Source: Spiroplasma phoeniceum P40
GTDB lineage: Bacteria > Bacillota_I > Bacilli_A > Mycoplasmatales > Mycoplasmataceae
Length of the DNA stretch: 64,000 nt
Direction: 5' to 3'
NCBI RefSeq assembly: GCF_003339775.1
Contig: NZ_CP031088.1
Coordinates: 806,001-870,000, forward strand
The notes beneath the pieces were generated by a model, which saw nothing but the letters and a program-made list of their open reading frames with translations, searched no databases and was not told the origin of the DNA. A program made the translations under genes and the position numbers. Positions within the stretch are counted from its first letter, which is position 1. Each line of letters opens with the position of its first letter. This document shows, in pieces, positions 4,988-25,775 of this stretch.

Positions 4988-5330
4988 ACTAGATATATGA
5001 TAATTATATTTATTTTTCAATGTATGATAAAAATTAGAAATAGATGTTATCACATCATTGCTTAATTTTTTATTTTTAATTTTTCCTTCTCATTCTTTAA
5101 TCATATTGTTATTAACTTCTTTTAAAAAGTGCTTTGCAAAAAGAATAAATTGGTCTGAATTATTATTTTTTTCAACAATGTCTAAGGCAAGACTTCAATC
5201 AATTCTATTTAATATTCATTGTCATATTTCTTCACTACGGTCAACAGATAGCCGGATTATCAAAGCCATTTTAATAAATAATACTTGATACTCTTTTGAA
5301 GCTTTTTTCAATAATTGTATTGTAAAGATG
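4985..5330 (-). pseudogene. Hypothetical protein interrupted by IS30-type element
   Basis: An open frame of about 115 codons ends with LKNKYNYHISS. The C-terminal part resembles the end of the phage protein at 17692-18345 (LSDKVYK then LNKKYNYGY). Its 5' end runs into the IS element border near 5331, so the N-terminus is missing. The function is unknown. It suggests that the phage-type gene family also existed outside the prophage, or that the IS30 element split an older prophage. Confidence 0.5.
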
Positions 5331-5487
5331 CAAGTAGGTAATTCCAACCTTGTTAATATGATATTATACCTTTTATCAAAAAATGCAATATTTTTTCAAA
5401 AAAAATAACTTTTTTAAATATGAGTTAATATTTAAGCACGACAAAAAGAAAAGTTTGCTACAAATATATAATTTATATTTAAAAAAA

Positions 5488-6480
5488 TTAAATATTAATA
5501 TTTTGTAAAAATACCTCTTTGGAGGATAATCAACCTAAACTCGGTCGCGGCTTTTCATTAATAATTTTCATAACTTTATTAATTTCTTTTTGAGTAACAG
5601 TATTAAAATCAGTTCCCTTAGGTAAATATTCTCTAATATCTCTATTTATTCTTTCAACTTTTGCTTTTTGTGTCGGAGTTCCAGCATCACAAAAATAAAC
5701 ATTAGCATTAGTAATTTTCTCCATCTCTTTTCATTTACTAAATTCTTTACCTTGATCTGTAATAATTCCTTTTATATTTACTTTATAAAGTTTATTTCTA
5801 ATAATACTTTTAAGAACTTTATTAACCTCTTCTGAATTATGTTGATTTAATTTAAAACAAATCGTATATAAACTTTTTTCTTCGGTAATAGTTAAACAAG
5901 CAGACTTATGTTCTTTTCCAACAATACAATCCATTTGAAATCAACCAAAAGTTCCCTTTTCATGTTCTGCTTCATCAATAAATCTAATATTAGTTAATTG
6001 ACCACGATCATCTTTTCTCTTTTTTGTTTTATATTTTTTACCTTTAAATGGTAATTTTTTCTTAATTTCAGTATTTTCATCATCAAAAACTTTATATTCA
6101 ATATATTTATAAAGTGTCATATGTGAAAATGGAAACTTTTCATTATATTTTTTTTCATATTCATAAATAATTAATCTTGGTGAATAACTTTTTTTACTTA
6201 AAATTTTCTTTACATAATTTACAACTTTTTTTGTAATTGTAGTATATTTAATAGATTTTTTTCTTTTCTTTTTATAATCATCATTTGCTTTTTCAGGATC
6301 ATATTCTTCTTTAAGTCTTTCAACCTCTAATCTAATTGTATTAGGGCTTTTATTCATTACTTTTGCTATTTTAGAATAATTAGGTGTACCATTTTTCTTT
6401 TTAAATGTTTCTGATATTAAATATTCTTTTAATTTATATCTTTCATCAAGACTAAAATGTTTATATTTTTTCTTTTTCAT
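5488..6480 (-). CDS. IS30-family transposase
   Basis: This 330-aa transposase is open through three TGA (Trp) codons. An N-terminal helix-turn-helix region (residues about 10-55, SLDERYKLKEYL and SKIAKVMNKSPNTI) recognises DNA ends. The DDE catalytic core follows: first Asp in QMDCIVG, second in ITDQGKEFS, Glu in KAKVERIN. The C-terminal PRPSLGW is the family's typical end. All catalytic residues are present, so the enzyme may be active. It sits at the left border of the prophage. Confidence 0.9.
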
Positions 6481-6533
6481 AAGATTTAACCAACCTTTCC
6501 AAAAATATTTTTATCATAAAATTTAAAATTTTG

Positions 6534-6568
6534 TTGACATTTTATTAAAAGATGTTAGGATGGTGATG
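6534..6568 (+). promoter_or_regulatory. Phage-type promoter, site 1
   Basis: TTGACA at 6534, a 16-base spacer, TAGGAT at 6556, then GGTGATG. This is the same layout as the promoters before the late genes. A hairpin terminator at 6629-6652 follows about 60 bases downstream, so it may make only a short RNA. It lies inside the suspected IS30 border, which leaves its origin open. Confidence 0.6.
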
Positions 6569-6628
6569 TAATTTAATACAAGTAGGATTATCCAACCTTA
6601 AATCTCTTGTTTAAAAATTACTAAAAAT

Positions 6629-6652
6629 GAAGACTTGAAAAAGTCTTTTTTT
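6629..6652 (+). terminator. Terminator upstream of late operon
   Basis: The hairpin AAGACTTgaaaAAGTCTT is followed by seven or more T. It insulates the late promoter at 6655 from transcription entering from the left. Confidence 0.75.
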
Positions 6653-6654
6653 AT

Positions 6655-6689
6655 TTTACTTTTTTATATTTTTTTGTAGAATGGTGATG
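6655..6689 (+). promoter_or_regulatory. Phage late promoter, site 2
   Basis: TTTACT at 6655, 16-base spacer, TAGAAT at 6677, then GGTGATG. It lies 19 bases before the terminase start, and the GGTGATG would be at or near the transcript start. Confidence 0.75.
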
Positions 6690-6707
6690 ACAAAAGAGGT
6701 AAAAAAG

Positions 6708-7067
6708 ATGGCAAAAGTAGATAAAAAGTGATGAATAATGGCAAATTTAACAAAAATAAAGCAAAAATTAACAAAATTTGATGAATATTGTAAAGAAAAT
6801 AATATTAAACTTGCCACAAAAGAAACCTTATTAATCTTTTGTAATTTAGAAGAAGATGAATATAATACCTTAAAAGACACTAATTTATTAGCATTTAATG
6901 AACTTAAAATGAAAATACGAATATTAGAAAATAATATAAAATTACATCTCTTAAATGAAACTAAGGGGGGTGTATCTGTATATGCTCAGTATTATGGTCG
7001 TGAAAATGAAAGTGAAATAAATTATGCTCCCCCAGTAATTAACATAACAGATGGGAGAAACATATAA
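6708..7067 (+). CDS. Terminase small subunit (probable)
   Basis: This 119-aa protein starts at the ATG at 6708, chosen because AGAGGT lies 7 bases upstream and TGA codons are Trp; a later ATG at 6738 is possible. It is mostly helical and lies directly before the large terminase, with TAATG stop-start overlap. Position and size fit the DNA-recognition subunit that brings phage DNA to the packaging motor. I see no clear helix-turn-helix, so the call rests on context. Confidence 0.6.
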
Positions 7068-8584
7068 TGGCAATGTTATATGAATATAGTTATCTTAATA
7101 AGATAGTAATTAGTTTGTTAAATAATACTGAATATATTGCAGATGAGATTAATTTAGCAGGTAGTCGTAAAGCAGGTAAAACATATTCTATTGATGAATT
7201 AATAGCATTATTAAGTTGTGTAGTATTAGCACATAAAGATAAAAAAATAGCAATATATGGTTTTAGATTAAATAGTGCTGATACTGCTGAAATGCAACAA
7301 GATATTCAAGATGCATTAGATAAAATAGGTTTAATTCTTAATCCTACTAAAAAATGAAAAGGTGGTCATTATCAATATAATGCTAGGTTTAATAAACCTA
7401 CTTGATTATTTCCTAATGGTAGTTTTATTAAATTACAAGGAGCAAGAAAAAGTAATTCATCGCAAGTATTAGGTAAAGGAACAGCACGAGCAAATGGTGC
7501 TGATTTATGTATTATTTGATTAGAAGAAGCAAATGAATTTAGTAAAGCAGAAAAAGAAGCAATTATGCAAGCAGTTCGTGATTATAAAAAAATGATATTA
7601 ATTACAAGTACTAATCCTGATAGTATTTATCAAGATCATATTGATTATTTAAATAAATTAATGCCATTTAATCGTAAAGAATTAGAAAGTAATGGTGAGC
7701 AAATATCTAAATTAATAGTGCCAGTCTTAGATCCTAAAACAGGTCAAAAAGCATATGATAAAAAAGTAATTAATCATTATACTAATTATTTAATTAATAA
7801 AGATAATTTAAATTATGATGAATTAATGAAATTATATGAATTAAAAGCAGAATGACCTAAAAAATATGAGGTTTGAGGAATTGGAATGCCAGGTGCATTA
7901 GATGGTAGTATTTTTGCTAATTATTTATTTAGTAAATTATATGATTTTGAACCAGTTAATTTTAGAGCAGGCTTAGATTTAGGTTATGCTGAATCACCAT
8001 TAGGACATGCTACTCATGCAATTTTAATAGGAATAGATAAAGATTATAAAAAAATGGCACCATTAATGGAATATAAACATAGTAATGCTGAAATGGTACA
8101 AAAAGATATAATGAAAGTTTTACATGAAATAGTACATTTTTATATAATATGTGCTACACAGTGAAATGATTTATATAATGGTTTAGAAATAAATGTTGAT
8201 ACTGGTGGTGGTCATTTAGTAGAGGTTGATACATTAAATAATATTAGACGAAAGTTTTTCCCTGATGCTAATTGATTAAGATTTAAACCAGTTAATAAAG
8301 AAATATGATATAGAACTGATAGAATTGATGCTATAATCATCCTGCTAAATAAGAATTATTTACAAATTAGTCAAAGATTAACACCAGAATTATTTAAAGA
8401 TATGTTAAAAATGGAATGAAGAAAACCGCCAGCAAATAAATCTACTTATAAATTAGAAGATAATAAATTATTTGATGATGGTTTCGATGCTATGACTTAT
8501 GCTGTTATGGATATAATGGAATATTTTATAAAAACACTAGATAATCCATTTTTAATAAGTAAACAATTTGGAAAGCGAGGTTAA
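7067..8584 (+). CDS. Terminase large subunit
   Basis: This 505-aa packaging ATPase and nuclease is open through several TGA codons. The Walker A-type motif is GSRKAGKTYS (residues about 32-41), Walker B is LCIIWLEEAN, and the nuclease Asp residues are plausible in RAGLDLGYAE and in the FDDGFDAMTYA region near the end. It belongs to the PBSX/Terminase_3-like group. Translation is coupled to the small subunit. It would translocate DNA into the prohead and cut it. Looks intact. Confidence 0.9.
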
Positions 8585-8588
8585 AATT

Positions 8589-8888
8589 ATGGCAAAAAAA
8601 CAAATTAAAAAAAATGTTGAAAAAATGCGAATGGATAAAAATATTTGTTGAATGATAATTGATGGTAAAGAATGTTTTAAAAAAGTAAGTAAAAATTGAA
8701 ATGGTATTGGTGTTCCTGCTTGTGAAGAACATACTAAAATATTTCAAGAATTAATGAAAGAAACTTATGATTATGGTGTAAATAATCAAAAAGAATATTT
8801 AGATCAATATGAAAAAGGTTTTAAAAAAGGTATTGAAGAAACTAGAACTGAAATTAAGAAAAAATATCCACAAGTTTACAAAAATTAA
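8589..8888 (+). CDS. Small phage protein with possible zinc site
   Basis: This 99-aa protein starts 4 bases after the terminase stop. Cys residues at about 18, 28 and 45 and His 48 (ICWM, KECFK, ACEEH) could form one zinc site. The C-terminal half is charged and helical. A similar Cys pattern ending in CEEHW is in the remnant at 46671-46878. Function unknown; the next promoter lies at its 3' end. Confidence 0.65.
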
Positions 8889-8909
8889 AATGATGGTAAG
8901 ATGGTGACG
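8875..8909 (+). promoter_or_regulatory. Phage late promoter, site 3
   Basis: TTTACA at 8875, 16-base spacer, TAAGAT at 8897, then GGTGACG. It overlaps the end of the preceding gene and precedes the scaffold and capsid genes. Confidence 0.75.
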
Positions 8910-8955
8910 ATAGTTTTTGAAATTTTCTATAAAAAAATAATGGAGGGATTAAAGT

Positions 8956-9426
8956 ATGTCAAACTTTAAATATGAATATAAAGAAAATATGACACAAGAT
9001 GAAATTAATGCTTTATTAGAACAAAAAGAAAAGCAAATATTATCTAATGTCTTACCAAGTGTAGAAACTCGTATTAAAACTGAAACTGAAAAACAATATG
9101 AAGAAAAAATTAGTAATTATCAGTCAAAAATAAAAGAATATGAGTTATCACAAGTACCACAAGAAAATCGTAAATTAGTTGAAGAACTATTAAATAGTGG
9201 TAAAGATATGGAATATGTTAAAACTAACTTTAAAGATTTAATTGAGAAAAAACCACAATTAGATATGAAAAACCTAATGAATGGTGGAATTCAAATTAAA
9301 GATGAAAATATGTTTATTGAAGAATTATCACAAAAAATTAAAGAAAATTTACAAGATAATCATAATATTCCCATTAATGAAAGAATTAAAAACTTAGTTC
9401 AAAAAGAATACCAGAAAGGAAAATAA
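8956..9426 (+). CDS. Capsid scaffolding protein (probable)
   Basis: This 156-aa, strongly charged protein has a long coiled-coil region (residues about 15-70, ALLEQKEKQIL to SQVPQENRK) and no membrane segment. It stands directly before the capsid gene, 3 bases apart, with a GGAGG ribosome site. Size, charge, coil and position are those of scaffolding proteins that guide prohead assembly. No protease motif is visible. Confidence 0.75.
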   Translation: MSNFKYEYKENMTQDEINALLEQKEKQILSNVLPSVETRIKTETEKQYEEKISNYQSKIKEYELSQVPQENRKLVEELLNSGKDMEYVKTNFKDLIEKKPQLDMKNLMNGGIQIKDENMFIEELSQKIKENLQDNHNIPINERIKNLVQKEYQKGK

Positions 9427-9429
9427 AAT

Positions 9430-11280
9430 ATGGCATCAATTATAGGATTACATGAAGGGTTTGTTATTGGTAATGGAGTAGCAAATTTAACAAAAGAAGG
9501 ACATTTATTATTATCAGCACAAGAAATGCGAGTAAAAAATATTTTAACTAATCCTGATTATTATACATTTCACCGTTTAACAGCAACAGCACAATCAAGT
9601 CCTAATATGGAAAGTGCAGATTATGCAGTAGCAATTTATACAATTCCAGAACGATTATTTTATGGTGATTCAGAATGAAATCACGAAAAAGGAAATCCAA
9701 AACAAAATCAAAATGCTAAGCGTGGTCGTTTAGTAATTGATCATACTATTGGTTTAAAAACACAATGAAGACGATTTGATTTAGATCGTTTAAAAAATAC
9801 TGACCCATCATTACGCGGTGAATTAGTAGCAAAATGAACTGGTTCAATTACAGAAAATATGATGTTTAATTTAGAATTATACTTTTTAAAAGGTGTAATT
9901 GATAATTATATTGCTAGATCAAAATTTAAACCTGATTATGCTTTTATTTATGACACAAGTACAATTAAAACTCAACAAGATGCATTAGATTTAATGTATA
10001 AATTAGCACATCGTATGACTGATGAAACAAGAAAAATTAATGCATCTCAAATTGGGACAAATACTAGTGATTGAGAAATGATATGAGAACCACATTCATA
10101 TTTAGATTTAACACGAGCATATACTCAATTAATTGGTGAAAGTATTTCAGCAAATACAATGGTAACAGGTACTTTATTCCAAGATAAAGTAATGGGTTAT
10201 ATGATTTCTAAATCATTATGACTTGGGCAAGAAATTGAACCTTTATATGGTAAAACATCAGATGGGCAATTACAAGTTAATTTAGAGGGAATGAATAGAA
10301 CTCGTGGATTTGATTTATCTATTGATAAAAAAATTGAAGGACTTGTAATTCATAGAGAAAATGCAGCAATGATTACTATTTTTACTGAAAATATTAGTTA
10401 TGTTGATAATGATACACAAGAACCAGCATTTACAAGTCGTGTATTATTTTCATTACCTGCTTTAACAAGACCTGAATTAGGTTTCTTAATTGTTAAAGAA
10501 ATGTTTACAGAACAAGAACAAAATGATGCCATTGCTCGTTTATGAGATAATACTAATACTACTAGTGATAGTTGACAAAAATATAATGAATTTACTGGTG
10601 AATGAGAAAACGAATTAACTTATCAATTATTAGATTATGATCCAAATTATAAAGATTTTTATAATCCTATATTTAAAACTGCAATGCAAAATACTATTAA
10701 TAATATTAATAATTTAGATGTAGATCAAACAGCATTAAATATGGATGTTAAGAAAAAATATCATGAATTCTTTGGAATTATTCCATCAACTCTTGACACA
10801 GCAGAAATTAAAAAATTATTTGATAAAGTATTAGATAATAATTTAACTACATATCAAAAAAACAAAGTTATATCATTTATGCGTTCTGCCATAATATTAA
10901 GTGATGGTAAAAATGATTATCCAATTCAAATAAATTCAGCAGGTATTTATTTACCAGTTAATGAAATTGTAAGTGGAAATATTTATTTACATATTAATGC
11001 AGGTGTTATTGATAATCAAAATATTAATGATAAAAAAATATTAATTAATAGTACAACAAAACCTGCTTTATCAACAGTTATTACAACACCTAATTTAGGT
11101 CAAATTACAATGGTTGGTGATACACCAACTACTGCTGAATTAGAAACTGCTATTAAAGCAAAAAATACTAATTATCAAACTGGAGATGCAACATTCTCTA
11201 ATATTACATCTACTGGCACATTAGCAACTGGAAATCCAAATAAATATAGTGGAACAGTTTCTTTAATTTATTCAAAGTAA
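9430..11280 (+). CDS. Major capsid protein with C-terminal surface-like domain
   Basis: This 616-aa protein is open through TGA codons. The first about 370 residues read like an HK97-type capsid protein by position after the scaffold and by its mixed alpha/beta content. The last about 200 residues look different, with LSTVITTPNLGQ, then PTTAELETAIKAKN and YSGTVSLIYS. This pattern of short helix plus beta hairpin is the repeat seen in Spiroplasma surface proteins of the spiralin type. At its stop (11278-11280) the -1 frame is open for another 216 codons, which may be a frameshift extension (next entry). Confidence 0.75.
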
Positions 11281-11933
11281 GTAGTGCCGTAGATATTCAC
11301 GATAAAATTAAAAATGTTGATAGTTTAACAAATGATGAAATAATTAAAGGAATTATTGTACCTCAAAAAGTATCAAGTGAAGATTTAAGACCGCTTTTAA
11401 ATGATAAAGTTTTAAAAGCAGTTAAAGCGGTTGATGCAAGTTTAACAGCAGATGATTATGATTGATGACCGTTATATTATCAAGGTGAACCATCAAGTTA
11501 TGATATTACTACAACAGATATTTATGTTGATATTTATATTGCTGGTAAAAATAAAGCAACTGGTGTTTCACAAGTTCAGTATTATAAAGTACAAAAAGTA
11601 AATCAAATAAGTATTAAACAATTTAATAAAGATAATATTGGAACTTTAAAAACACCTTGATATAGTGATGTTCCTGATTTAACTAAAAAAGCAGATGTAA
11701 TTACTGAAATGAATACTGGTCTTATTAAAGCAATTCAAAAACTTAATGCTGGTTTAACAACTTCAGATTATATTGTTAATATTTTAGATTATGATGATTC
11801 AATATTTAATGATAGAGATGAGGGTAATTTTAGCAATAATGTTTCGGTACCATATATTTTAATTGGTACAAATTGATTAACTGGTGAAACAACAGGAATG
11901 GAAATTACAGTTCCTGCTGCTACTAAAAAATAA
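11277..11933 (+). CDS. Possible -1 frameshift extension of the capsid protein
   Basis: An open frame of 218 codons runs from 11277 to the TAA at 11931-11933 with no ATG, GTG or TTG start near its beginning. It lies in the -1 frame of the capsid gene and starts at the capsid stop (TCA AAG TAA). Two repeats can be seen: LLNDKVLKAVKAVDASLTAD and MNTGLIKAIQKLNAGLTTSD, each followed by a beta-rich part. They resemble the capsid's own C-terminal module. Options are programmed -1 slippage on AAAG giving a minor long capsid form, a mutation or sequencing error splitting one gene, or a separate gene with a cryptic start. Confidence 0.55.
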
Positions 11934-11940
11934 AAAGGAT

Positions 11941-12855
11941 TTATTTCCTTTTTATTTTATTTTTTGTTGTATTTATTGGGTTTTTAATTATATTAAATCC
12001 TTTTTTAATTTCATTATAAAGATTAATTGTTTTTGGTTTTGATATTATTTTAGTATGTAATTTTTGATAACCTAATTTTAAATTAGTAGCATATTGTTTT
12101 TGTTGTGTTAATCAATTTTTATTATCTATATATTGTTTATGATTATTTAATTTAGCATCTTTTGTATTATAAAAATTAGTACTATAACGATTTATTTCTT
12201 TATTTAATTCTAATAAGTTTTTATTAATTCTACTTGCTCTTAATTTAACATCTCCGCTACCTTTATTTTGTTGTGTATATATTTGTCAATTAACATATTC
12301 TCTTAATTCACTGCGTAATCATACATGTAATCACATATTTCAAAATACTGATCCTGATCCAGTTCCATTTTTACCAGTTGCTGATTTCATTGCTTGTCAT
12401 ACTTGAATGTGTACTTTTGGATATGTATATGGTCCATATCATCTTTTTTGTTTATCATTATCTGATTGAATTAAAATAGTTAAATTACCTATTAATTTTT
12501 GTTTATTAGTTATTTGAAAAAATCCCTTTTTACATCAACTACTAGATAATATAGTTCAATTACTTTCTGTTGGTGTTAATGAATTTATAATTTCTTTATA
12601 TTTATTTTTATCTAAAAAACTAATATCTTTAAATAATTGTATTTCTAAACTTTTAGGTAATTTTGCTAATAAATCACTTAATATATTAGGATTTAAATAA
12701 TATTGAATTTGTGCTAATTGATGTTCAATATCTTTAATGCTTTGTAAAATTGATTTTATTTTAGAATTCCCATATTTTTCTAATAATTTTATAATTCTTA
12801 ATGCTATTTTAGGATTTTCTAAAATACTAGTAATTAATGTTAATAATTTTCACAT
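11941..12855 (-). CDS. KTSC-like phage protein
   Basis: This 304-aa protein is encoded on the - strand inside an otherwise + strand late region, between capsid and portal. Its start has AAGGAG 9 bases upstream. Residues about 90-180 (CKKGFFQI, GNLTILI, YGPYTYPKV, FWNMWLHVW) resemble the KTSC fold; the rest is Lys- and Asn-rich and helical. A shortened relative is at 898-1473, there on the same strand as the adaptor gene. It converges on the capsid gene and diverges from portal. Function unknown. Confidence 0.65.
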
Positions 12856-12858
12856 ATT

Positions 12859-12896
12859 TTGACACTCTCCTTATGGTGATTATATAATGGGTGATG
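12859..12896 (+). promoter_or_regulatory. Phage late promoter, site 4 (portal)
   Basis: TTGACA at 12859, TATAAT at 12883 (18-base spacer; TATATA at 12881 would give 16), then GGGTGATG. It lies in the 59-base divergent gap between the KTSC-like gene and the portal gene. The spacing and the extra G depart from the other sites. Confidence 0.7.
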
Positions 12897-12914
12897 ACAA
12901 AAAGAGGTGTAAAA

Positions 12915-14321
12915 ATGAATAATGAAATAGATTTTAAAGAATTAAATAAACAACCCGAATATTTAAATTATTTGGAAAAAGGAAAATACCCAATATTATC
13001 AGAACAAAAATATTATATTGATATTCCTTGAATTATTGCTAATAGAAAAGCAGCTCCATTAACTATTGGACAAGGTCTAATGTTTAATTGTGATAATGAT
13101 GATACACAAGATTGAATAGAAGAATGATACGAAAAAAACTATGTTTATTCTAAATTATTTCAAAATGAATTAGCAAATAGTTTATATGGGCGTAGTGTAA
13201 TGTATTTATTAAAAACAGAAACTGATGATTTAACTATTGATGTTGCACCTATTGGTTCAAGTGTTCGTATTGCTAAATATTCAGAAATAGAACAATATGC
13301 AGAAATGTGAATATTACCTGCTCAATCTGATTATATGTGATATCAAAAAGTACAATTTTATCCAAGAAAAGCAAAAATAACTTATTATACTGCAAAAGAT
13401 TTAGAAATTGGTATTTGACAAACTTATGGTGAATTAGAAAGTAAATTAAGACCAGTTTCTATAATGGAATATGATACTGGAATAGATATATTACCTATTG
13501 TTGAATTTACAAATTTACCTAAATTAGTTCAAGGTACAAAAACAACAGCAGATGCTGTGCCCGATTGTTTACCTGTATTTAATTTAATTAAAGATGTACA
13601 AGATAATATTTATTATAAAAGAATTGAAAGAATTATTAATCGTACTCATTTTGTAGGACGAAAAAATACATCTCCACTTGGTGATAATGATAATGGTAAT
13701 GGTGATGAAGAATTAGTACAAGCAGATGCTTTAATTAGTAGTACAGTTCAACAATATGCTATGACTGGTACTACTGGTGTTGGTTTAATTCATGCTCAAC
13801 AAAATTATACTGAAATAACTATTGATAGTGATTATTCTATGAAAATGATATTTAATGGTGCAGGTTATGAATATGATAATTTTTCAGGGAATAATTATAC
13901 AAATAAAACAGAGTCATTAATGAATAATAAATTAGATATTCATACTACTTTACAAAAAAGATCTTTACGATTTCCTAAATTATATCGCTTATTTGATTAT
14001 ATATTTAAGCATTATAAAAAATGAGATAGTTTAGATGATAACAGTCAGAATAATGATAATTTTAGACCTTATACCTTAGAATTTATAGATATATCAATAG
14101 TTAATGAAATTACTCAATCTGAGGTAATTGATAGACAAATAAATAATGGAACTATTACTCATGTTAGAGCAATTCATAAACAAGAAAAAGTAACAAATAA
14201 AAAAGCAAGAATGATGTATGAAGAAATTAAAAAAGAACAAAAAGAACAATTAGATCAAGAAATGAGTTATATTGATGATAATCAAACAAGAGAAGAAGAT
14301 ATTAAAGGAGATATACAATAA
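12915..14321 (+). CDS. Portal protein
   Basis: This 468-aa protein forms the ring at the capsid vertex through which DNA passes. Evidence is size, mixed beta/alpha N-terminal wing with many Trp/Tyr, a long C-terminal helical stretch (KARMMYEEIKKEQKEQ) and location near terminase and capsid. It fits the SPP1 gp6-type portal family. AGAGGTG is the ribosome site. Its stop overlaps the next ATG (TAATG), so the two are coupled. Portal after capsid is a less usual order than portal before scaffold. Confidence 0.8.
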
Positions 14322-17212
14322 TGCAAGTACCTAATATTAATAGTATTTTTAAAAACTTAAATGAAAGAATAATGGATAATAGTGTTAGATCTGATTTAAC
14401 TAAATTAGATATTGATATTAAAAGTAATTATTTCTTTTTTCCATTTATTATTAAAACTGGTTTAGTAAATATTACTGATAAAGGTTTTCAACCTAATAAT
14501 GGAGTACCACAAAACTTTACACAAATGTCACAAATATTTACTGGGAAAGAAGGAATAATAGCACAATGAAAAAATGCTATTAAAATTAGATCTCGTGCTA
14601 TACCTGATATTTGAAATTATGATTTTTTCCAAAATAATAAAGATTGATTTACTTATTCTATTAATGAATTTAAAAATAGTTTAACGGATAAAGTTAGTTA
14701 TTTATATATTACTAGTACCGAAAAAACTTATTTATGAGATGCAACAAAACAAGTTTTTATTAATAAAGATAATCCTGATAATAATTATCCAGTTAATGAT
14801 ATTTGAGAAAAAATTAATAATGAAAATGGTTTTAATGTTTATGTTATGAATTTACAAAAAATTGATAAAGCATTAGATAATTTTGCTATTAAAAGAAAAT
14901 TTAAAGGTGATGCTTATAAATGTCATATTGTTAATATTAATGATACTGTTGAATTTTCTAAATTAGGTGGTGAAGAATATTTTGGCGAATATAATGCTTG
15001 ATATCTTGATCGTACAATTACGATTGAAACTACTTATAATTTTCAAAGAGAAGATTTTTTAAGATTTTATTTAGTTCCTTTACAATCTGATAAAGAAGAT
15101 GTTGATGATAATTTATTAATGTTTATTTCAAATGCTCAACCAAAATATAATGATTTAAATGAATTAGTATATTGAGTTATTACTTTTAGTTATGTTAAAG
15201 ATTATATTAATACTACTGGACAAACTATTCAGCAATTCGTACAATTTTCAGCACCAGGTGAGGGTTATGTAATACCTAAAATAATATGAGATGATTTAGG
15301 TATTCCAAAAGATTATATAATTAATGAGAAATTTACTGGTGATCGAGGTATTAAAAGTATTCAAATTAGTTTATTAGGTAATAATGCTTTTTCAGCACCA
15401 GTTATATTTGGTCGCCCTATTGAAAATTTAGGGAAATGAAATGAAAAAGTATACCCAAGTCGTAGACTATTTATTGAAAGTATTAAAACACCAATTTCAG
15501 ATCCAATTACTAAAAATAGTAAACCTCTTTCTACTTATTATTTGACAAATGCTATACCCGCTATTAATGGTCAATATGATAATTGATTAAAAAGAAAACA
15601 AGGACAAACAAACCAAGAAGTTAAAAAGAATTATGAAGGTTATTTAAATACTGATAGAGATTTAACACAAGCAACTAATCCAAGTAATTTAACAGTTAAA
15701 GATAAGGATTGACTATTTAAGAATAAAGATGTAATAAATATAGAATATGATGTTAGGCCAAATGGGTATTTTAGATATAATAAAAAAACTGGAATTGTTA
15801 ATATTAATCCATCTAAACATTCAAAAGGAACTTTTAAAGATATGTTAAATTTATTTTCAATAATGAATAATCATATTATTAGTTTGCCAATAGATATAAA
15901 TGAAAGTGTTGTTTGAACACAAAGAGATATACCCGTTATTGGTAAATTTTTAAATGCAATAACTTTTGGAATACCTATTTATTGAAAAATTATAGATACA
16001 AACACTAATTTAAATTACCCTAATATTAAAACTGGTATTCCTTTATTTATAGGTAAATCAAATTATACATTTTATGATGAAAGTTATTGACCTAGTGTTA
16101 TTATTGACAATAAAGAAACATCAAAAAATCAGGGTAATATACCACTTGATGTTTTTAGATATAATACGCAAGATGAGGTTAATGATATTATTAATGCATC
16201 ATCAAGCAACACAAGTATGGCATTTACTTTAACAGATAAAATAAAATTACATAAATATAATAAAGAAAATGGTACAAGTTTAGGTTATCAAAATGTATCA
16301 AGTATTTATTTAGGTCAATATGATTATGAAGATAATAATATTGTTTATTTAGCAGATGGTCAATTTGAAGCATTTAGTGCTTTAAGTGAAAACTTTTTAA
16401 CAGATATTAATGGATATACTTATATTATTGATGCTATTGGATTTTATAATATTGGTAAAACTGCTTGCAAAATTTATATGTTTACAGATGATATAGATCA
16501 ATTTGAACCATTTAGTATTATGGATTATCAAATTAGTTTACAAACAACATCTTTATATAATAATTCAGTACGAGATTGATTAACAATATATCCTTTAAGT
16601 TATTTAGATCAATTTATAGATGATAATGTAATACATGAATGACCACAAACTTTTCCACAACCTGAACCTGATTTAAATTTATATCCTATTGAAATTGATT
16701 TAAGCAAATTAACTGTAAATTTAGATATTTATGCAAATATTAATGATCAAGAAGGAAAGGAAAAAACCTATAATGTAGAGTATGAATTATATGATTTTTC
16801 AAAACAAGGTATAAATAATTGACAACAAGTAGTAAAAAATTATCATAGTTTCTATATAACTAATTTAAATACATCATTGCCTAATAATTTAAATGTTTAT
16901 GCAAAAAAATCTAAATCTGATGATATAGTAGATGTAGCAAAAAATGATTTAAGTTTAGCAAATTATATAGTTTTAAATGATATTACAACAGATGGTTATG
17001 CTCCTTTAAATTATTCATTTTATAAAAGTGATAATGTTGCTCGTGTAAAAATATTATGTAAATTATTATTTTATAGAGATGGTGTTAAGTTAAAAGTTAA
17101 ATTTAGTGTAATATTAAATGCTAATATTTATCATAGTGCATTGTTTGGTGATATTTGAGGTTATTTATCTATGGCTACAAATGCCACTACTAAAATTACT
17201 TTAAAAAAATAA
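14321..17212 (+). CDS. Large phage structural protein, 963 aa
   Basis: This is the longest gene of the prophage, open through many TGA (Trp) codons and translationally coupled to portal. The protein is rich in Asn, Tyr and beta-type segments with no membrane helix or enzyme motif I recognise. Its place after portal and its length fit a tail-tube, knob or fibre component of a short-tailed phage. It is too beta-rich to be a tape measure. It may carry the tail tip. Confidence 0.6.
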
Positions 17213-17215
17213 AAA

Positions 17216-17617
17216 AAATGTCTTTTTGTTATTCTTTAACAATTACATTTCCATCTTTATCAATATCTAAACTAGGAGATTTATTTTCTTCTCCATTTCA
17301 ACGATAAACTTTTATCCATGAGTTAGACCAAGGCAATTTAATATTAACATCTGGATTATTATTTATTCTTTTTGATATTTTTATATTATTAGAGTTATCT
17401 TTATATATCATGTAATATCATTTATTATCTACTAATTCATTAAAAGGTTTTTCCTGTTTTGTTATTCATTCTAAAACACCATCGTTTGTTTTTATATTAT
17501 TTTTTTCTTTTAAATCTGCCAATTCTTTTTCAGTATATTGTGCTTTATTACACCCAACTACGCTTGTTGTACTTGTTCCTATTAACAATATTCCCCTAAA
17601 ATACTTAATAATCTTTT
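17216..17617 (-). pseudogene. Phage lipoprotein, frame broken in G tract of signal peptide
   Basis: The ATG at 17617 opens MKRLLSILG, then a GGGG tract shifts the frame to a stop. Restoring one base gives ILLIGTSTTSVVGC, a standard Spiroplasma lipoprotein signal with lipobox Cys, and an open frame to the TAA at about 17231. The mature part has WYYMIYKDN and IKVYRWNGEE then DIDKDGNVIV. This resembles a module in the SpV1 adsorption protein (59941-60150) and the lipoprotein at 61515-61859. A G-tract shift could be phase variation, decay or a sequencing error. Confidence 0.65.
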
Positions 17618-17642
17618 CATTGTAGAATTATCCTCCCTTTAT

Positions 17643-17677
17643 TGTCACCATCATACCATCAACAAAGTTAATTTCAA
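17643..17677 (-). promoter_or_regulatory. Phage promoter, site 5 (lipoprotein)
   Basis: On the - strand: TTGAAA at 17677-17672, 16-base spacer, TATGAT at 17655-17650, then GGTGACA. It is followed by a GGGAGG ribosome site and the lipoprotein ATG at 17617. The same promoter class serves a gene on the opposite strand. Confidence 0.7.
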
Positions 17678-17691
17678 TATTTATTTAAAAT

Positions 17692-18345
17692 TTATATACC
17701 ATAATTATATTTTTTATTTAAAATACTAAATATTTTATAAACTTTATCACTCAATTTTTCTTCTGACTTTTCATTAATTTTTCATTCTTTCATAATATTA
17801 TTTAATGCTAATTTTCATTTTTTTTCTAAATTACTATATATTTCTTTATTAATTTTTTTATCTTTTATAACTTCATAAAATTCTTGCACATTTAAATTAC
17901 TTAATAATTTTTCTAATTTATTATTATCTTCTTCTTCTGATAATTGAATGGCAATAAAAACTCTAATTACTAAATTTTTTAAACCTGAATCTGCTTTCTT
18001 TATAAAAGAAATAAATTTTTTTGTAAAATTATATACTTCTTTATTTTTTGAAAAAATATTTGCTGTTGAATGTAGTTCATCTTTTACTAGTTTTTTTATT
18101 TCTTCTTTACTTTTTCCAATAAAATCTAATAATCGATCTTTAATTTCAATAAAACTATCTAAAAAAATTACTGCTGCGGAATTATAAATATTATTTTCTT
18201 TAATTGTTGAATTATATTTTTCAAGTTCTTTGCTATAATCATACAAAATATCATAAATTTCATTTTCTAAAATTTTCTTTCTTGTTTTTAATTTTAATTC
18301 TTCCAATTGATTATAATTAATTTTATTGTTTTTCATTTTTTTCAC
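17692..18345 (-). CDS. Hypothetical phage protein, 217 aa
   Basis: This lysine-rich, almost entirely helical cytosolic protein is read through two late TGA codons to TAA at 17692. Its C-terminus (EKLSDKVYKIF, NKKYNYGY) resembles the remnant at 4985-5330. It follows the membrane protein at 18353-18691 with 7 bases between and both are - strand, so they form an operon inside the late region. The pairing suggests an accessory (moron-like) unit, perhaps exclusion or defence. No motif supports a specific role. Confidence 0.6.
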
Positions 18346-18352
18346 ATCCCTA

Positions 18353-18691
18353 CTATAATTTATTTTTCTCTAAAAAATCTTTTAATACTGAGCCATTAAC
18401 TTTCTTTTGATTTTTATTTTGATTAATTTTTTCTTTTACTTCTTTTTTCTTTTTTTCTTTTTTAATTTTTTCTAAAATATCATTTTGAGGGTTTTTTTCT
18501 TGTTTAATACATAAATTATTTTCAATAATTTTAAGTATTGTCATTCAACGTTCTTGCTCGTATTTTAATTTAATTTTTTCTAAATCATTTTTTACTCTAG
18601 TAGACCTTATACCAAATAGTATTGTTAGTAACGTACTTATTACACTTAAAACACTTCCTATTAAACCAAAAATGCTCGATCAATTATCCAT
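18353..18691 (-). CDS. Membrane-anchored phage protein with charged tail
   Basis: This 112-aa protein has one N-terminal membrane segment (residues about 4-30, IFGLIGSVLSVISTLLTILFG) followed by a coiled, Lys/Glu-rich tail. The frameshifted gene at 26902-27209 has the same layout and similar N-terminus. It is upstream partner of the gene at 17692-18345. The type is seen among small phage membrane proteins, including exclusion proteins, but the function is not evident. Confidence 0.6.
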
Positions 18692-18809
18692 AAAATTTTT
18701 AACTTTCTATACATATAAAAACCCTCTCTTTTTATTAACTTAATTATATAACAAAATTATACAACAAAAATAAAAAGGGTTGCATATATTTTAATTTTTA
18801 ATATTGTTG

Positions 18810-18844
18810 TTGATTATTTTTATCTTGATGCTAAGATGGTGATG
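18810..18844 (+). promoter_or_regulatory. Phage promoter, site 6
   Basis: TTGATT at 18810, 16-base spacer, TAAGAT at 18832, then GGTGATG, 30 bases before the next + strand gene. Confidence 0.7.
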
Positions 18845-18873
18845 TGAAAATTAAGAAAGGACGATAAAAAAAT

Positions 18874-19212
18874 ATGAGTACAGAACTTTTAATTGGTATT
18901 GGAGTTGGAATTGCTTTTGGTGGGGTTTTAGGTTATAAAGGATTAGAACTTTTAATTAAAAAAATAATTAAAAATAAAGTTAAAGAGTCTGCAAATAAAG
19001 TGGTAGGACAAGAAACATTAGATGCTATTCATTTAGGTTTATTGCAAACTGCTAATACTTTGGGTCTTGGTAATACTGAATGAGCACAAGTATTAGAAAC
19101 AAATAAACCTGTTAGTGAAGAAGAATTTAATCATATTGTTAAATTACAAAGAGCAAAGAAATCAATTTCTAAAAAAGATATTAAATTATCGGATAAAACA
19201 ATTAAAGTCTAA
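18874..19212 (+). CDS. Small phage membrane protein, holin-like
   Basis: This 112-aa protein has one Gly-rich membrane segment (residues about 5-28, IGIGVGIAFGGVLGYKGLELL) and a polar, basic C-terminal part. It has its own promoter and a terminator that overlaps the stop codon. It could be a holin: with no cell wall in the host, a pore-former alone might release phage. It could also be a virion membrane protein. The layout matches 493-789 in the other prophage. Confidence 0.6.
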
Positions 19213-19227
19213 AAAAGACTTTTTTTG
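19204..19227 (+). terminator. Terminator after holin-like gene
   Basis: AAAGTCT and AGACTTT pair over a short A loop, followed by T7. The stem overlaps the TAA of the gene and the upstream part of promoter site 7. Confidence 0.7.
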
Positions 19228-19229
19228 TT

Positions 19230-19242
19230 TATAATGGTGATG
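19230..19242 (+). promoter_or_regulatory. Phage promoter, site 7 (-10 and GGTGATG)
   Basis: A perfect TATAAT is followed by GGTGATG, 15 bases before the adaptor gene. No good -35 is seen 16-18 bases upstream (TCTAAA at 16), so strength may come from the -10 and the conserved downstream element. Confidence 0.65.
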
Positions 19243-19257
19243 CGAAGAGGTGAAATT

Positions 19258-20664
19258 ATGGCAGATATAACAAAATTAGAAAGTTTTAAATTAATAACAT
19301 TAGAAGAGTTTAAAAATTGAGAGGGTTTTGATAAATTAGTAGCACAATATGGTAAAAAACTTTATGATGATACTATTTCAAATTATTTAATTGAGGGTAT
19401 TACAAGAGCAAGTTTACAATTAGATAGTATTTGTGGTTATCGTTTAGAAACTGAGTTTCCATTGCTTGATCCTAATAGTGAAATTGATAAAAAGCGGATT
19501 AATTATGTAAAAATTGCTTGTTGTTTGCAAACTCAATATTTAATAAGAACTGGGATTGAATATTCAAATGGTGGTGAAAATAGTAGTGATAGTGTTGCAA
19601 GTTATACATATCCTAGTAATATGAAGATAGAATTTTCTCCTGATATTATAAGTTTATTAGAAAAAGCAAAGTTTTATAAATCACAAACTATAACTAAAAT
19701 AAACCCTGATAATTATGGTTTTAAAAATGAATATAATACTGGATTTGTGCAACCTGATACTAATCATAAAGATCGACCAATTATGTTAAGTGAGGCAGAT
19801 GCTAAATATGTATGAAAAAATAGTATGTTTACATCTAATACTTTATCTATTATTCCATGATCTAGTACTGAAAAAAGTGGAATATGACAAATTGAAATAT
19901 CAAGGGAATTATTAGCAAATTATATTGATAATTATATAAAAAATATTTCCGTTAAACTTGATAATAAAAGTATTATATATAATTCTAATAATGAATTATC
20001 AGTGCCTTTTGATAATGATACGATTTATTATGAAAATAATGTATGAAAAGCAAAACAAGGTGGTGATATACCATCTGATGTTATTAAAGATAGTGATTTA
20101 AATAAAGATTATATTGATAAAGAAGATGGAAAATATATTGTTAAAAAAGCACAAAGTGGTAGTTCAATAACAGTTAATGCCCCGTTACATCAAAAAGATG
20201 ATAGTAGTTTAGAATTATTATTATCAGATGAATTTGATATTGAAAATAATAAATTATCTTTAGATAAAGGTTTAACAGATACTATTGACCAAATGTTAAA
20301 ATGAGTGCTTGAAATAAATAAAAAAATAAAATGAGAAGAAGTACCGATATCATACACACCTGATAGTTCAACTTATATTGATATTCCTGAATTTTCAGAA
20401 GAATATCGTTATCAAGTTAGAATGTCACCAACTAATCGGAGTACATCTGAAGGTAACTTACGACTTGATCCGCCTTATTTTACAGAAAAAAAAGCAAATA
20501 AAACTTTATCTAAACGCCAATCAATCGCTTTTATTGATGATATGGATAAAACCCATTATAGTATTTCACTATATAATGCTACTGGTCGAGTTTATTTAAC
20601 TGATGGTAATGCTGGTAATAATGTAAAAATAAATAGTGTTCGGGTTTTACGACAAGAGGTGTAA
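19258..20664 (+). CDS. Head-tail adaptor fused to C-terminal tail domain
   Basis: This 468-aa protein starts at 19258 with GAGGTG 7 bases upstream. Residues 1-160 form a helical domain (ITLEEFKNWEGF, INYVKIACCLQTQYLI) like gp6/gp15-type head-tail adaptors. The remaining beta-rich part (VPFDNDTIYYENNVWKAKQG, LLLSDEFDIEN, YRYQVRMSPTNRS, GRVYLTDGNAG) looks like a tail appendage. The middle block is nearly identical in DNA to the truncated copy at 1463-2278. Fusion of an adaptor with an appendage domain is my inference. Confidence 0.65.
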
Positions 20665-20666
20665 AT

Positions 20667-21266
20667 ATGATAGATAAAGAAAATATTATTATTAAAAATG
20701 AAAATGGTACTTATTGACAAAGATTAGGTTTTGAACAAAGAAATCCAAGTCAAAGTTTTAAAGCATGAAAAAATCGTAAGTTTTTAAAATATGATAAATA
20801 TCCATTTCATATTAAAAAAGCATATATTATGCGATATAATGCACTGTCAATTTTATATCATACACCATTTTTAAGTTTATATGGTTTATTTTTTACTAGT
20901 TTACATTTTAATTGAATACCAACATTAGAACCAGTTAAAGAGTTTATGTTTGGTCAGCACAATATAACTGATGGTGGTTTTTTTGGATATGCTGGGATTG
21001 TTATATCATATCCAATATTACATGGTACTGCTTGATTAACAACAAAAATACCTAAAATACCAGCAATTAAATTACCGATTGGTAAATGTTTAGAGCAAGT
21101 TTATAAAATACCAAGTTATATCTTATATTTAATATTATTTGGTTGATTAATATTTCGTAAATATCTTAAAAAACATAATGTTAATATTTGTCATAATTGT
21201 AAACAAACAATAGAACAAGTTGAAAGTTGAAATGAATATTGTCTTAAAAAAAGATGAAATAAATAA
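20667..21266 (+). CDS. Phage membrane protein with C-terminal Cys motif
   Basis: This 199-aa protein starts 2 bases after the adaptor stop. Hydrophobic segments at residues about 55-80, 105-130 and 150-170 suggest three membrane spans. A C-terminal CHNCKQTIEQ...YC motif could bind zinc on one face of the membrane. It is the last gene of the rightward late operon and is followed by a strong terminator. It may act in lysis or DNA entry; not recognised. Confidence 0.65.
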
Positions 21267-21271
21267 CATTT

Positions 21272-21300
21272 AAAAAAATAACCAATTAAGGTTATTTTTT
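21272..21300. terminator. Bidirectional terminator, end of late and early operons
   Basis: AATAACC / GGTTATT hairpin flanked by A and T runs, between convergent genes. Same element as 466-494. Confidence 0.8.
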
Positions 21301-21477
21301 ATCTGTTTTTAAGATAATTAAATTCTTTTCACCATATTTATTGATTAAATATTCTCAGTCTCATGTTGAATTTATATTTACATCTTCAATATCAGTACCA
21401 GTTATATATTCACCAAGAGGAGTTTTACATGGTCGTTTACCTTGTTCTGAATGATAACACAAAATATATTTATTCAT
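21292..21477 (-). CDS. Small conserved phage protein, 61 aa
   Basis: Intact version of the protein whose copy at 289-474 is broken. MNKYILCYHSEQG, KTPLGEYITG and STWDWEYL are the recognisable parts; Cys at 6 and 16 could pair or bind metal. It is the last gene of the - strand early operon. No family is recognised, but two copies in two prophages show it is a conserved gene. Confidence 0.7.
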
Positions 21478-21552
21478 TATTATATCTCCCATCTTTTATT
21501 GCATTTCTTTTTATAACAACACTTTAATCTTTTATGCTTATAAGACTTTCTT

Positions 21553-21720
21553 TTATTTACTTTCATCTTCTTTATTATTTACAATATAGTAATTGATAAA
21601 ATGCTGTACTCGTTGGTTATGTGTATATAATTCGGGTAATTCATTTCATATTTTTGCTTGTTCTTTATTTAAGTAAACATTAATATTTCTAATTACAACT
21701 TGATGATTTTTTGTTTTCAT
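21553..21720 (-). CDS. Small phage protein, possible DNA-binding
   Basis: This 55-aa protein is a paralogue of 78-296. VVIRNINVYLNKEQAKIWNE followed by a helix and FINYYIVNN could form a strand-helix-helix unit like ribbon-helix-helix repressors. It overlaps the end of the zinc-ribbon gene. A regulatory role is only a suggestion. Confidence 0.55.
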
Positions 21721-21847
21721 TTTTAAATAACCTTTTATAACAAACATAATGCATTACTTTATTATTTTTAGAAACAATATTACCATAATTAATATTTTTA
21801 TTACATTCATTACATTTTATTTTAATAGAATAATGTTGGTTGAACAT
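21689..21847 (-). CDS. Zinc-ribbon-like small protein
   Basis: This 52-aa frame has CNEC near residue 13 and HYVC near residue 39, a possible four-ligand zinc site. The start (ATG at 21847) overlaps the methyltransferase end and the stop overlaps the next gene, as in the tightly packed neighbours. It is short and could be spurious, but the Cys pair spacing supports it. Confidence 0.5.
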   Translation of the reverse strand: MFNQHYSIKIKCNECNKNINYGNIVSKNNKVMHYVCYKRLFKNENKKSSSCN

Positions 21848-22595
21848 ACTTTAATCGCTCCTTTGTTAATTTATAATATTTTTCATTAATTTCTATTCCA
21901 ATTCAACGCCGATTTAATTGTTCACAAGCATACGCGGTTGTACCACTTCCTAAAAAACAATCTAATACAATATCTCCAACTTTACTATGCTTATTTATTT
22001 GTAATTTAATTAAATTAATATCTTTAATAGTAGGGTGTTTTATATTTCCTATAAATTGATTATTGCTATTAGTAATTTGATAAATAGTCTGCATATCTTG
22101 ATTTCAAACATTACTATAACTAATTGGGTTTTTGTAAATATATAAACATAATTCTTTATCTTTACGATATGCAGCATTAGTAGGTGCATCATTTGTTTTT
22201 TTGTAAATTATTAATTCAAACTTTAAGTTATAATTTTCTATTTCAATTAAATAATCTTTTAATTGTTGTTTTGATAAATAAATTATAAAATTTGGTTTTT
22301 TAATAATTCGCATTCATTCTTTAAAATATGATGGTATATCAAAACTACTAATAAATTCACCCTGTAAAAATTCAAGTTCCCTTTTACGAATTTGATATTG
22401 AATATTAGAACAATTAGGATCTTGTATTTTTTTTAAATTATATTTAATATGCTTTTCTTTATTTTCTAATTTTTTAGCAATATCAGGGTAAAGGTAAGGT
22501 GGATCAGTTAATATTAAATCAATACTTTTGTCAGATATTGTTTTTAATATTTCTAAACTATCACCAAAATATAACTGACCTAATTTAGTTTTCAT
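21822..22595 (-). CDS. DNA methyltransferase (adenine-N6 or cytosine-N4)
   Basis: This 257-aa enzyme has the catalytic motif TDPPY near residue 33 and the AdoMet-binding motif DCFLGSGTT near residue 205, followed by IGIEINEKYY. The order catalytic motif first, AdoMet motif last is that of beta-class amino-methyltransferases. The target-recognition part lies between. No restriction gene is adjacent, so it is probably an orphan phage enzyme that protects phage DNA. ATG at 22595 is preferred over an upstream TTG; it overlaps the resolvase end. Confidence 0.85.
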
Positions 22596-23064
22596 AATTA
22601 GCAATTATAATTGCATCGCGGAGATGATTACTTATTTTTTCATTATTATAAAATCAACCTTTACCATATTGATAAGTTAAATTAGTATCTTTATCATATT
22701 TTCATAAACAACTATCATTATATTTACTTAAATTTTTAATATTTTTAACAACTGATTTAGTATATTTTGGTGATACTCAATTAATTTCAATTTGTAAATC
22801 ATTTAATTTAATTTCTAATGCACCTAATAATCGTAATAAATCATCTCTATCTTTTGACCCATTAGCATTTGTTGGTAAACAATTTTCAATATTAAATTTA
22901 TATGAATTTTTATATCTAAATGCAGAAAATGAATCTATTATAAACTCTAATTGTTTTAATCAATTATTATATATAATTTCAATTTTTCTAATAATTTTAT
23001 TATCTTCATAAATAACAATACCAGTAGTACCAGTTCCTGATGGGTCAATACCTATTTTTATCAA
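22585..23064 (-). CDS. RuvC-like Holliday junction resolvase
   Basis: This 159-aa protein starts MIKIGIDPSGTGTTG, an RNase H-fold start with the first catalytic Asp, and ends NHLRDAIIIANY with the last Asp. Acidic residues in EIKLNDLQIE are candidates for the central Glu. I chose the TTG start at 23064 because GAGGAG lies 8 bases upstream; GTG at 23073 is too close to it. It would resolve branched DNA before packaging. The gene overlaps recT and the methyltransferase. A second copy ends at position 91. Confidence 0.8.
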
Positions 23065-23969
23065 GTTGCTCACTCCTCATCATTATTAACTGCTGGTACT
23101 ACATTTGAGATATCTTCTTCTTTAACGACATTATCGTTAGTGTCTGCTATTTCTGGATAAGATGGGTTATTTATATTATTTGATAAGGGTTCATCGCTAA
23201 TTTGCCCTTTATTTTTGGCGACATTAGTATCATTATCAATATAAATATTTTCATCATTAGTAGTAATAACTGATTGATCTGATTTATATGCTTGTTGTAA
23301 TTCAACAGACATAATACCTCATTTTCTTAATAATGATGTTAATACTGTTTTTAATGCCATTTCATCAAAAGTAGCAATATAAAATGATTTATTTTTAGCA
23401 TAAGTTTTAGAATATTTCATAAAATGATTTTCCATTTGTTCTTTTGTCATATATAAAGTTTTTTCAAAACCATTAACCATTTTAAAATATGCTACATATC
23501 CAATAATGGGTAATTTTTCTCGTTCATTTTCATTTTGATTTCAATTAAAACTAGTTCCTTTTAAACGGTCATAATTTACTAATTCACCAACTCTAACATC
23601 TGTTACTGCTATATCTAAATATTGTCCACTTCTTTGTGCTAATTGAATATAACCTTTATAACCCATTTGAAATTGTGCTTGATTAATTCATTCTTGTACT
23701 TCACGACCATTAATAATTCTTGTTATTTTAGTATTATATGGAACAACATAAGCATAACCAAATTGTTTTTCCATTGGTAAATTTAATAAAACACCTTGAT
23801 AACAAGCAGTCATAATAGTTCTTGGGTCTGCTTTTTGTAATAAATCATTACTATTTGAGATTGCTACAATATTACTTTTAAATCTTGCAATTTCATTTTC
23901 ATTAGAAAATTTACTTTTTATTCATTCATTTACCTTATCTGTTTTTAAAAATTCAACAATATTTGTCAT
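23058..23969 (-). CDS. RecT-family single-strand annealing protein
   Basis: This 303-aa protein matches RecT in order: a region around TIMTACYQGVLLNLPMEKQF, GYKGYIQLAQRSGQY and IIGYVAYFKM, then MENHFMKYSKTY. The C-terminal about 90 residues are acidic and low in complexity. It anneals complementary strands in phage recombination, normally with an exonuclease, which I do not see unless the DUF1351 neighbour or another small gene helps. It overlaps the resolvase and starts next to the DUF1351 gene. Confidence 0.88.
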
Positions 23970-23970
23970 T

Positions 23971-24741: not shown

Positions 24742-25079
24742 TATTTTTCCTCCTTACTAGGTAATTTGTCATATTTAGAATTATCTTTTAAAATTAGAAT
24801 ATACTTTGATAATTGTTCTTCTGTTGGTTCTTCTTCATCTTCAACTATACATTGGTCTCAATGTCCGTGATAACTACAATAATATTGAGCATCAAAATCT
24901 TCTTTATATAATATTTGTTGTTTTAATTCATCAAGTTCTTTTTTATATGTTTCTAAAATATTTTCAAATATTTCTTTATATGATTCAAGAATAACAGGAA
25001 AAGTCAAATCCCCATATTTCCCCGAATCATCTGCTCAATCTAATTGGTCTTTTATTAATTCTTTAACTGTTATATTCAT
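24741..25079 (-). CDS. Small acidic phage protein, KLPSK tail
   Basis: This 112-aa protein has a coiled middle, a Cys/His patch (YYCSYHGHWDQC) and an acidic C-terminal part ending KDNSKYDKLPSKEE. The last stretch is shared with the next upstream gene (25079-25327), as is LKQQILYKEDF. The two are partial duplicates. Coordinates overlap by the TAATG/ATG coupling on both sides. Function unknown. Confidence 0.65.
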
Positions 25080-25635: not shown

Positions 25636-25636
25636 T

Positions 25637-25774: not shown

Positions 25775-25775
25775 A

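Follow-up and report, generated by a model that had tools for sequence, protein, structure and literature searches.

A prophage of 21 kb in Spiroplasma phoeniceum P40 carries seven promoter-like sites in which the -10 hexamer is followed by a common heptamer, GRTGAYR. This motif is best read as the mark of a lineage-specific regulon of late and cargo genes. The prophage lies at about 5316-26492 of a window of 64,000 nucleotides (contig NZ_CP031088.1, positions 806,001 to 870,000), i.e., the whole stretch of Spiroplasma DNA (genetic code 4) which was analysed. The first of the seven sites appears to drive a short antisense RNA that would silence the transposase of the phage. We consider the complete model, a GRTGAYR regulon together with a transposase-silencing RNA made along with the late genes, rather probable.

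The seven sites and their distribution

All seven sites listed in the initial annotation are present; the coordinates it gave are the starts of the -35 hexamers, except for 19230, which is that of a -10. Site 1 (6534..6568, plus strand, TTGACA-16-TAGGAT-GGTGATG, -10 at 6556) is the predicted promoter of the small RNA. Site 2 (6655..6689, plus strand, TTTACT-16-TAGAAT-GGTGATG, -10 at 6677) precedes the gene in terS position and terL, and site 3 (8875..8909, plus strand, TTTACA-16-TAAGAT-GGTGACG, -10 at 8897) the putative scaffold and major capsid genes, which are named by position only. The portal gene (phrog_64, expectation value (E) 9e-6) is preceded by site 4 (12859..12896, plus strand, TTGACA-18-TATAAT-G-GGTGATG, -10 at 12883). 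Site 5 (17643..17677, TTGAAA-16-TATGAT-GGTGACA, -10 at 17655) is located on the minus strand ahead of a lipoprotein-like cargo gene. Site 6 (18810..18844, plus strand, TTGATT-16-TAAGAT-GGTGATG, -10 at 18832) precedes the gene of a putative membrane protein of 112 amino acids with a weak holin match (E 0.09). Site 7 (TATAATGGTGATG, 19230..19242, plus strand) comes right after a terminator-like hairpin and precedes the head-tail adaptor gene (phrog_541, E 5e-7).

GGTGAYR directly follows each -10, with one extra G at 12883. A fixed spacer of 16 nucleotides had been proposed as well. It is found at five of the seven sites (6534, 6655, 8875, 17677 on the minus strand, 18810) and fails at 12859, where a perfect TTGACA/TATAAT pair is 18 nucleotides apart, and at 19230, which has no clear -35. 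With a -35-like hexamer at six of seven sites (five at 16 nucleotides, one at 18) and the TG of an extended -10 at four of seven, the sequences fit the sigma-A extended -10 type (TGnTANNAT). We infer that the sites are promoters which host RNA polymerase would read via the, often extended, -10. The plus-strand units opened are terS position-terL, scaffold-capsid, portal, the 112-amino-acid protein and the adaptor. Together with the minus-strand cargo gene they bear out an association with late and accessory genes on both strands, except that site 1 is followed by a hairpin RNA instead of a late gene. As claimed, no motif site precedes the early operon. Upstream of this operon a different, palindromic element, CTACAAATTGTAG, is present at 26143-26155 plus a further TTGTAG, as also in two other loci (L052, L218; L and G numbers are our handles for loci and genomes). 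This palindrome is a likely operator for the early genes.

A scan of the host chromosome and a shuffle control had been named beforehand, and both speak for a prophage-specific family. The pattern TAnnAT(G)GGTGAYR occurs seven times in the prophage (21,173 bases, 5318-26490) versus not once in the other ~42.8 kb of the window; 200 dinucleotide shuffles of the prophage gave a mean of 0.07 and a maximum of 2. In the 1.9-Mb genome all 13 exact matches to the 13-mer TADDATGGTGAYG fall within three copies of the prophage, and the rest of the genome has none. Matches to the general sigma-70 consensus in 6400-21400 do not exceed expectation (116 found versus 144 expected). We also considered the motif as a general feature of Spiroplasma promoters and rejected this. 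Among the matches listed, 30 loci hold 32 exact matches, seven of which are lineage-A sites, lineage A being that of the window prophage; 24 of the other 25 lie where 170 codons or more run without a stop, in sense or antisense direction (mostly as YNGD codons), with L060 as the exception.

Related copies in S. phoeniceum, S. poulsonii, other genomes and an S. citri plasmid have mostly kept the form TADRAT-GRTGAYR, the search pattern itself having fixed the G, the TGA and the pyrimidine. The copy on the S. citri BR12 plasmid has the motif at the seven corresponding places, and in S. poulsonii MSRO the promoter upstream of terS has kept it with different flanks and a different -10. A different picture emerges in the sister lineages, which have a similar layout and plain promoters at the corresponding places. 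Across the sister-lineage loci L042-L056 the one GRTGAYR promoter match outside genes is in L045, away from any recognised late promoter, and the RNA promoter of L054 comes close with TAGAAT-TGTGATG. Their lipoprotein genes likewise have plain promoters, and the exceptions with the motif, L057 and L119 (G017), are from other prophage contexts. Thus, of the proposition that the motif defines a regulon, the prophage-specific family stands, with one sequence at unrelated promoters of one phage and its exact form absent from the host; its reach shrinks almost entirely to a single prophage lineage and the cargo gene of that lineage.

Could the similarity be mere shared descent, with similar promoters copied within the phage? 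Sites 3 and 5 and the terS promoter of S. poulsonii do have GATGGTAWGATGGTGAC in common. Apart from this, however, neither spacers nor downstream sequences are related, and the motif survives changes of the -10, which makes this explanation quite improbable.

Possible readers of the motif

At normal spacing between -10 and +1, GRTGAYR would fill the discriminator, -6 to +1, and hardly be transcribed. A common 5' RNA tag, one of the functions initially suggested, is therefore unlikely. GGTGAT is complementary to the 16S tail; the motif as an RNA tag or extended Shine-Dalgarno sequence was ruled out because transcription would start only downstream of it. We propose that GRTGAYR acts as a lineage-specific regulatory site tying late, lysis and cargo units into one regulon. 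In the simplest view a phage regulator would bind it and thereby cover the start region. A separate DNA-binding reader is favoured over sigma alone because at site 4 the entire GGTGATG is displaced by one position through the additional G and because a second GGTGAT is present inside the spacer of this site.

Alternatively, GGTGATG might merely be a strong or rigid discriminator for host sigma-A, with no dedicated regulator and a constitutive RNA. The position from -6 to +1 speaks for this, and in other bacteria the GG of the discriminator contacts sigma region 1.2. Discriminator composition is reported to tune promoters (PMC8422995). Yet in the window sites the T and A of the motif are as invariant as the Gs, and relatives retain the TGA, though the second position is often A. 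The host part of the genome has no exact match, at corresponding promoters sister prophages of this host go without the motif, and at site 4 the whole sequence is retained despite the shift by one base. We hold this alternative to be somewhat unlikely.

Slightly better placed, a possible if doubtful candidate, is the idea that a lysogeny repressor uses the sites as operators scattered along the late region. Phage P1 C1 and mycobacteriophage L5 have such dispersed operators (stoperators in L5), asymmetric repeated sites at many promoters. The window prophage resembles them in this respect, its asymmetric site overlapping the -10/+1 region before late units and before a minus-strand cargo gene. 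Unlike those of P1 and L5, the window sites are fixed relative to the -10. A repressor gene was not recognised, and the early operon, the usual target of a repressor, has the different palindromic element.

Several observations weigh against a dedicated regulon and its regulator. With one mismatch allowed there is little excess in the genome (34+54 versus 33+36 for the reversed pattern), and the relaxed TGNTADDATRRTGAYR has 17 genome matches, 11 in prophage sequence and 6 elsewhere; in five of these six, AA replaces the first two Gs. GGTGATG alone is unspecific (16 in the window versus 2.0 expected, several within open frames). The motif is short and non-palindromic, there are about eight independent sites, sigma region 1.2 could make use of the GG behind the -10, and site 1, with its consensus -35, may be active constitutively. 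The lipoprotein gene of L040, a lineage-A remnant of S. phoeniceum, has no motif, homology ending at the gene start, and in L036 two copies read TAGTGACA. Finally, the genes scanned, a set which does not include the small open reading frames at 25.6-26.1 kb, comprise no phage sigma-like protein or obvious regulator. Five genes of the three complete lineage-A copies (window, L032, L036) are confined to this lineage in the sense that none of the B/C loci compared matches more than 40% of their length. They are g106, the gene in terS position, and those of the scaffold, the 112-amino-acid protein and a DNA methyltransferase. A known regulator domain is absent from all five.

The methyltransferase (N6/N4 type, 21822-22595, minus strand) is encoded by the complete lineage-A copies; matches in the B/C loci fetched do not exceed 40% of its length, L054 having a piece of 48 residues. 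GGTGA resembles a known restriction site. As reader of the motif the enzyme was set aside: S. poulsonii MSRO keeps the motif without a methyltransferase match, and relatives of about 45% occur elsewhere. A protein of 64 amino acids at 21553-21747 (minus strand) has relatives in A, B and C loci and a strand-helix-helix-like sequence; it is possibly a small DNA-binding protein. It was considered as a ribbon-helix-helix regulator; a piece of 55 residues was modelled as two helices (predicted local distance difference test, pLDDT, 73), and Foldseek returned no useful PDB match.

A candidate antisense RNA opposite the transposase

Downstream of site 1 there is no gene. A hairpin and an intrinsic terminator follow, and then site 2. 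The predicted RNA of ~85 nucleotides (6568..6652, plus strand, with an inferred 5' end) would comprise the hairpin at 6578-6610, its loop core CCAACCTT at 6592-6599 (R) and a terminator stem at 6630-6652. A stretch of 8-12 nucleotides in the loop, with G-U allowed, complements the Shine-Dalgarno region in the mRNA of the transposase; the predicted RNA is thus antisense to the ribosome-binding region. CCAACCTT has three occurrences in window 1-30000. Besides R these are M at 6490..6497 (plus strand), which is the complement of the Shine-Dalgarno region (mRNA AAGGTTGG) and has the same position in other lineages, and L at 5344..5351 (plus strand), inside the left end of the prophage, where it falls within the 3' portion of the transposase transcript. 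L co-varies with R. Other loci have different loop cores: CAACCCTT, CTAACCCTT, CTAACTCTT, CTAGCCCTT, AAAGCTCT, TCTGTCTC, TTTTGTCTC and TTTGTATCTC. By eye, the arrangement of promoter, hairpin, terminator and late promoter before terL is found in 14 of 15 sister-lineage regions inspected; L047 is without this layout and L044 has a poorer -35. The transposase is encoded divergently. An Rfam 15 search with E up to 1 gave a single match in 5200-27500, a snoRNA model at 11786 (E 0.93, below the gathering score).

We infer that this is an antisense RNA which silences the phage transposase. Site 1 would drive a short hairpin RNA that stops at a terminator of its own, and the exposed loop would pair with the Shine-Dalgarno region of the divergent transposase message and with its 3' part. 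Such pairing, suggested by the three-way covariation, would block translation of the transposase. The transposase promoter (TATGAT, minus strand) and site 1 appear to have a common -35 region; polymerase competition between the two promoters would then be added.

The pairing was probed by exchanging partners. Scored as contiguous pairs (GC 3, AU 2, GU 0.5), own pairs reached 22.5 versus 13.9 when swapped in 11 hand-picked representatives, a set without L120, and none of 100,000 permutations was as good. For 22 pairs the means were 21.8 (own) and 14.4 (swapped). No foreign RNA scored higher than the own RNA in eight of the 11 representatives. In S. poulsonii L121 a changed base is retained as a G-U pair. 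One of the 22 pairs, L120, has lost complementarity, its target having decayed; it scored worst, and 11 of the 22 RNAs, its own included, were as good. The left-end core co-varies too, with up to 22 contiguous pairs in 10 hand-picked representatives and again 0 of 100,000 permutations. The hairpin arms around R change together, with arms chosen by hand and eye in a manner leaning towards pairing.

On the other side of the ledger, one foreign RNA outscored the own RNA in three of the 11 representatives. The hairpins are mostly weak, although all 12 tested fold better than the shuffle mean (z -0.7 to -3.6). One loop class coexists in several copies in a single genome (G000; L160, L162, L163, L164), so the RNA does not exclude further copies. 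Moreover, the core is also present in the left end, which permits a reading as a DNA-binding site.

According to this last reading the core at L, M and R would be bound by the transposase and would not be an RNA-RNA contact; L lies within the terminal inverted repeat, and there are three core copies per element. Against it, M coincides with the Shine-Dalgarno sequence, R sits in the loop of a hairpin whose (hand-chosen) arms change together, and the right end has no co-varying core in the three elements inspected (window, L049 and the phage MaM-2019a). The outer repeat is similar at both ends, and the best contiguous right-end match of the lineage-A RNA, AAGTAGGA (score 19), is in this outer repeat, not in a core. 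Transposase recognition through the outer repeat thus appears separate from the RNA core, and we judge the binding-site explanation unlikely. The idea that L and R form the inverted termini of a small insertion sequence (IS) was discarded, as they are direct repeats.

Among 59 transposase loci, a hand-picked part of a longer list, 23 have the repeated core and the promoter, and all 23 are within 5 kb of a terL match. Three of the 36 loci without this combination are within 5 kb of terL; two of these three, L181 and L195, have the promoter and a changed or wobble core. By eye, transposase copies beside lipoprotein or other genes are without the RNA.

Since site 1 bears the same motif as the late promoters, the antisense RNA is probably made with the late genes, and integration would be off while particles are made. 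It is a tentative and rather doubtful extension that the late-linked RNA shuts off the phage's own integration, that the loop classes are mutually distinct so that several prophage lineages in one chromosome each silence their own transposase, but not those of the others, and that the match in the left end is a decoy or contact site.

The prophage, related systems and implications

The prophage (5316..26492) is an element of the transposase type. Its left end TGTATTGTAAAGATGCAAGTAGG and, in inverted orientation, its right end TGTAGAATAAAGGATGAAGTAGG make up an imperfect inverted repeat (TGTA...AAGTAGG). Its borders are the points at which the flanks of copies diverge, and elsewhere in the genome sharing is confined to the inside. 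The left border was derived from L031, L032, L033, L034 and L122, in which sharing starts at 5318, the right one from L218. The minus-strand transposase at the left end (5488..6480) is an IS30-like DDE enzyme (rve E 8e-9; phrog_4646 'transposase, integration and excision' E 1e-73). It fits the IS30 family, with rve above the Pfam cut-off and HTH_38 below its cut-off, and relatives in MaM-2019a and phage R8A2B carry an IS30 annotation. The terS-position gene, which has no family match, the gene of the large terminase subunit terL (7067..8584, plus strand, phrog_2 E 5e-20) and those of scaffold, capsid, portal and head-tail adaptor follow. The minus-strand early operon comprises RecT, a RuvC-like resolvase and the DNA methyltransferase. 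The S. citri BR12 plasmid that holds a copy is pScpBR12-1, and the first 3.7 kb of this copy are 97.9% identical. In IMG/VR, neither terL nor the transposase led to a confirmed relative. The best explanation is a temperate, transposase-integrating double-stranded DNA phage of the Spiroplasma citri clade.

Two side observations concern insertions and neighbours. A lineage-A copy is apparently inserted in a sister-lineage prophage, between RNA terminator and late -10 (L031 ~18795; G000 C1 ~211.8 kb). Window 1-3620 holds pieces of other prophages or plectrovirus-like elements, with one small gene block in two diverged copies at about 2266-2956 and 3030-3565.

MaM-2019a (OL689230.1), a phage of S. 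poulsonii, has L/M/R cores at 852/1958/2077 of L231, with AAAGCTC at L, M and R plus once on the other strand. Like the window prophage it has an IS30-like transposase on the left, then terS, terL, portal, capsid and connector, with RuvC/RecT on the other strand. It differs in having the portal before the capsid gene, whereas the capsid comes first in the window prophage, and in having no GRTGAYR promoter. The terL of L050, a prophage of G021 with the same RNA sequence as MaM-2019a, is 30% identical to that of the window. In the MaM-2019a record right and left ends are joined (L231 about 790-850), as expected of a circular form. It is presumably the ~19-kb phage-particle DNA of Ramirez et al. 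2023, as cited in PMC12453411.

In IS10, RNA-OUT is antisense to the transposase ribosome-binding site and is transcribed from the opposite strand, overlapping its target. The phage RNA would share this mode of action, yet it is separate from its target and would pair via a co-evolving core of 8-12 nucleotides. Closer in arrangement is ISPpu9 with Asr9 and Ssr9, as described in PMC8450116. There, too, a small RNA is encoded beside the transposase and is complementary to its 5' leader, with a second complementary stretch on the other side of the gene; the left-end core resembles the second RNA, Ssr9. Unlike Asr9, which raises translation, the phage RNA would cover the Shine-Dalgarno sequence. 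Its gene also lies next to the leader without crossing it and belongs to a phage, and the second complementary stretch falls in the end of the element.

Among the titles and abstract openings searched, a scope mostly outside subscription literature, none mentions an RNA or a promoter family of this kind for Spiroplasma phages, and nothing on the regulation of tailed-type Spiroplasma phages turned up; the Spiroplasma papers covered were PMC13375240, PMC12445526 and PMC12453411.

The discriminator motif and the covarying antisense RNA provide handles on the choice between integration and particle production in phages with a DDE transposase. Both may bear on the strong multiplication of prophages and IS30 copies in Spiroplasma, and the loop classes are candidate orthogonal RNA switches.

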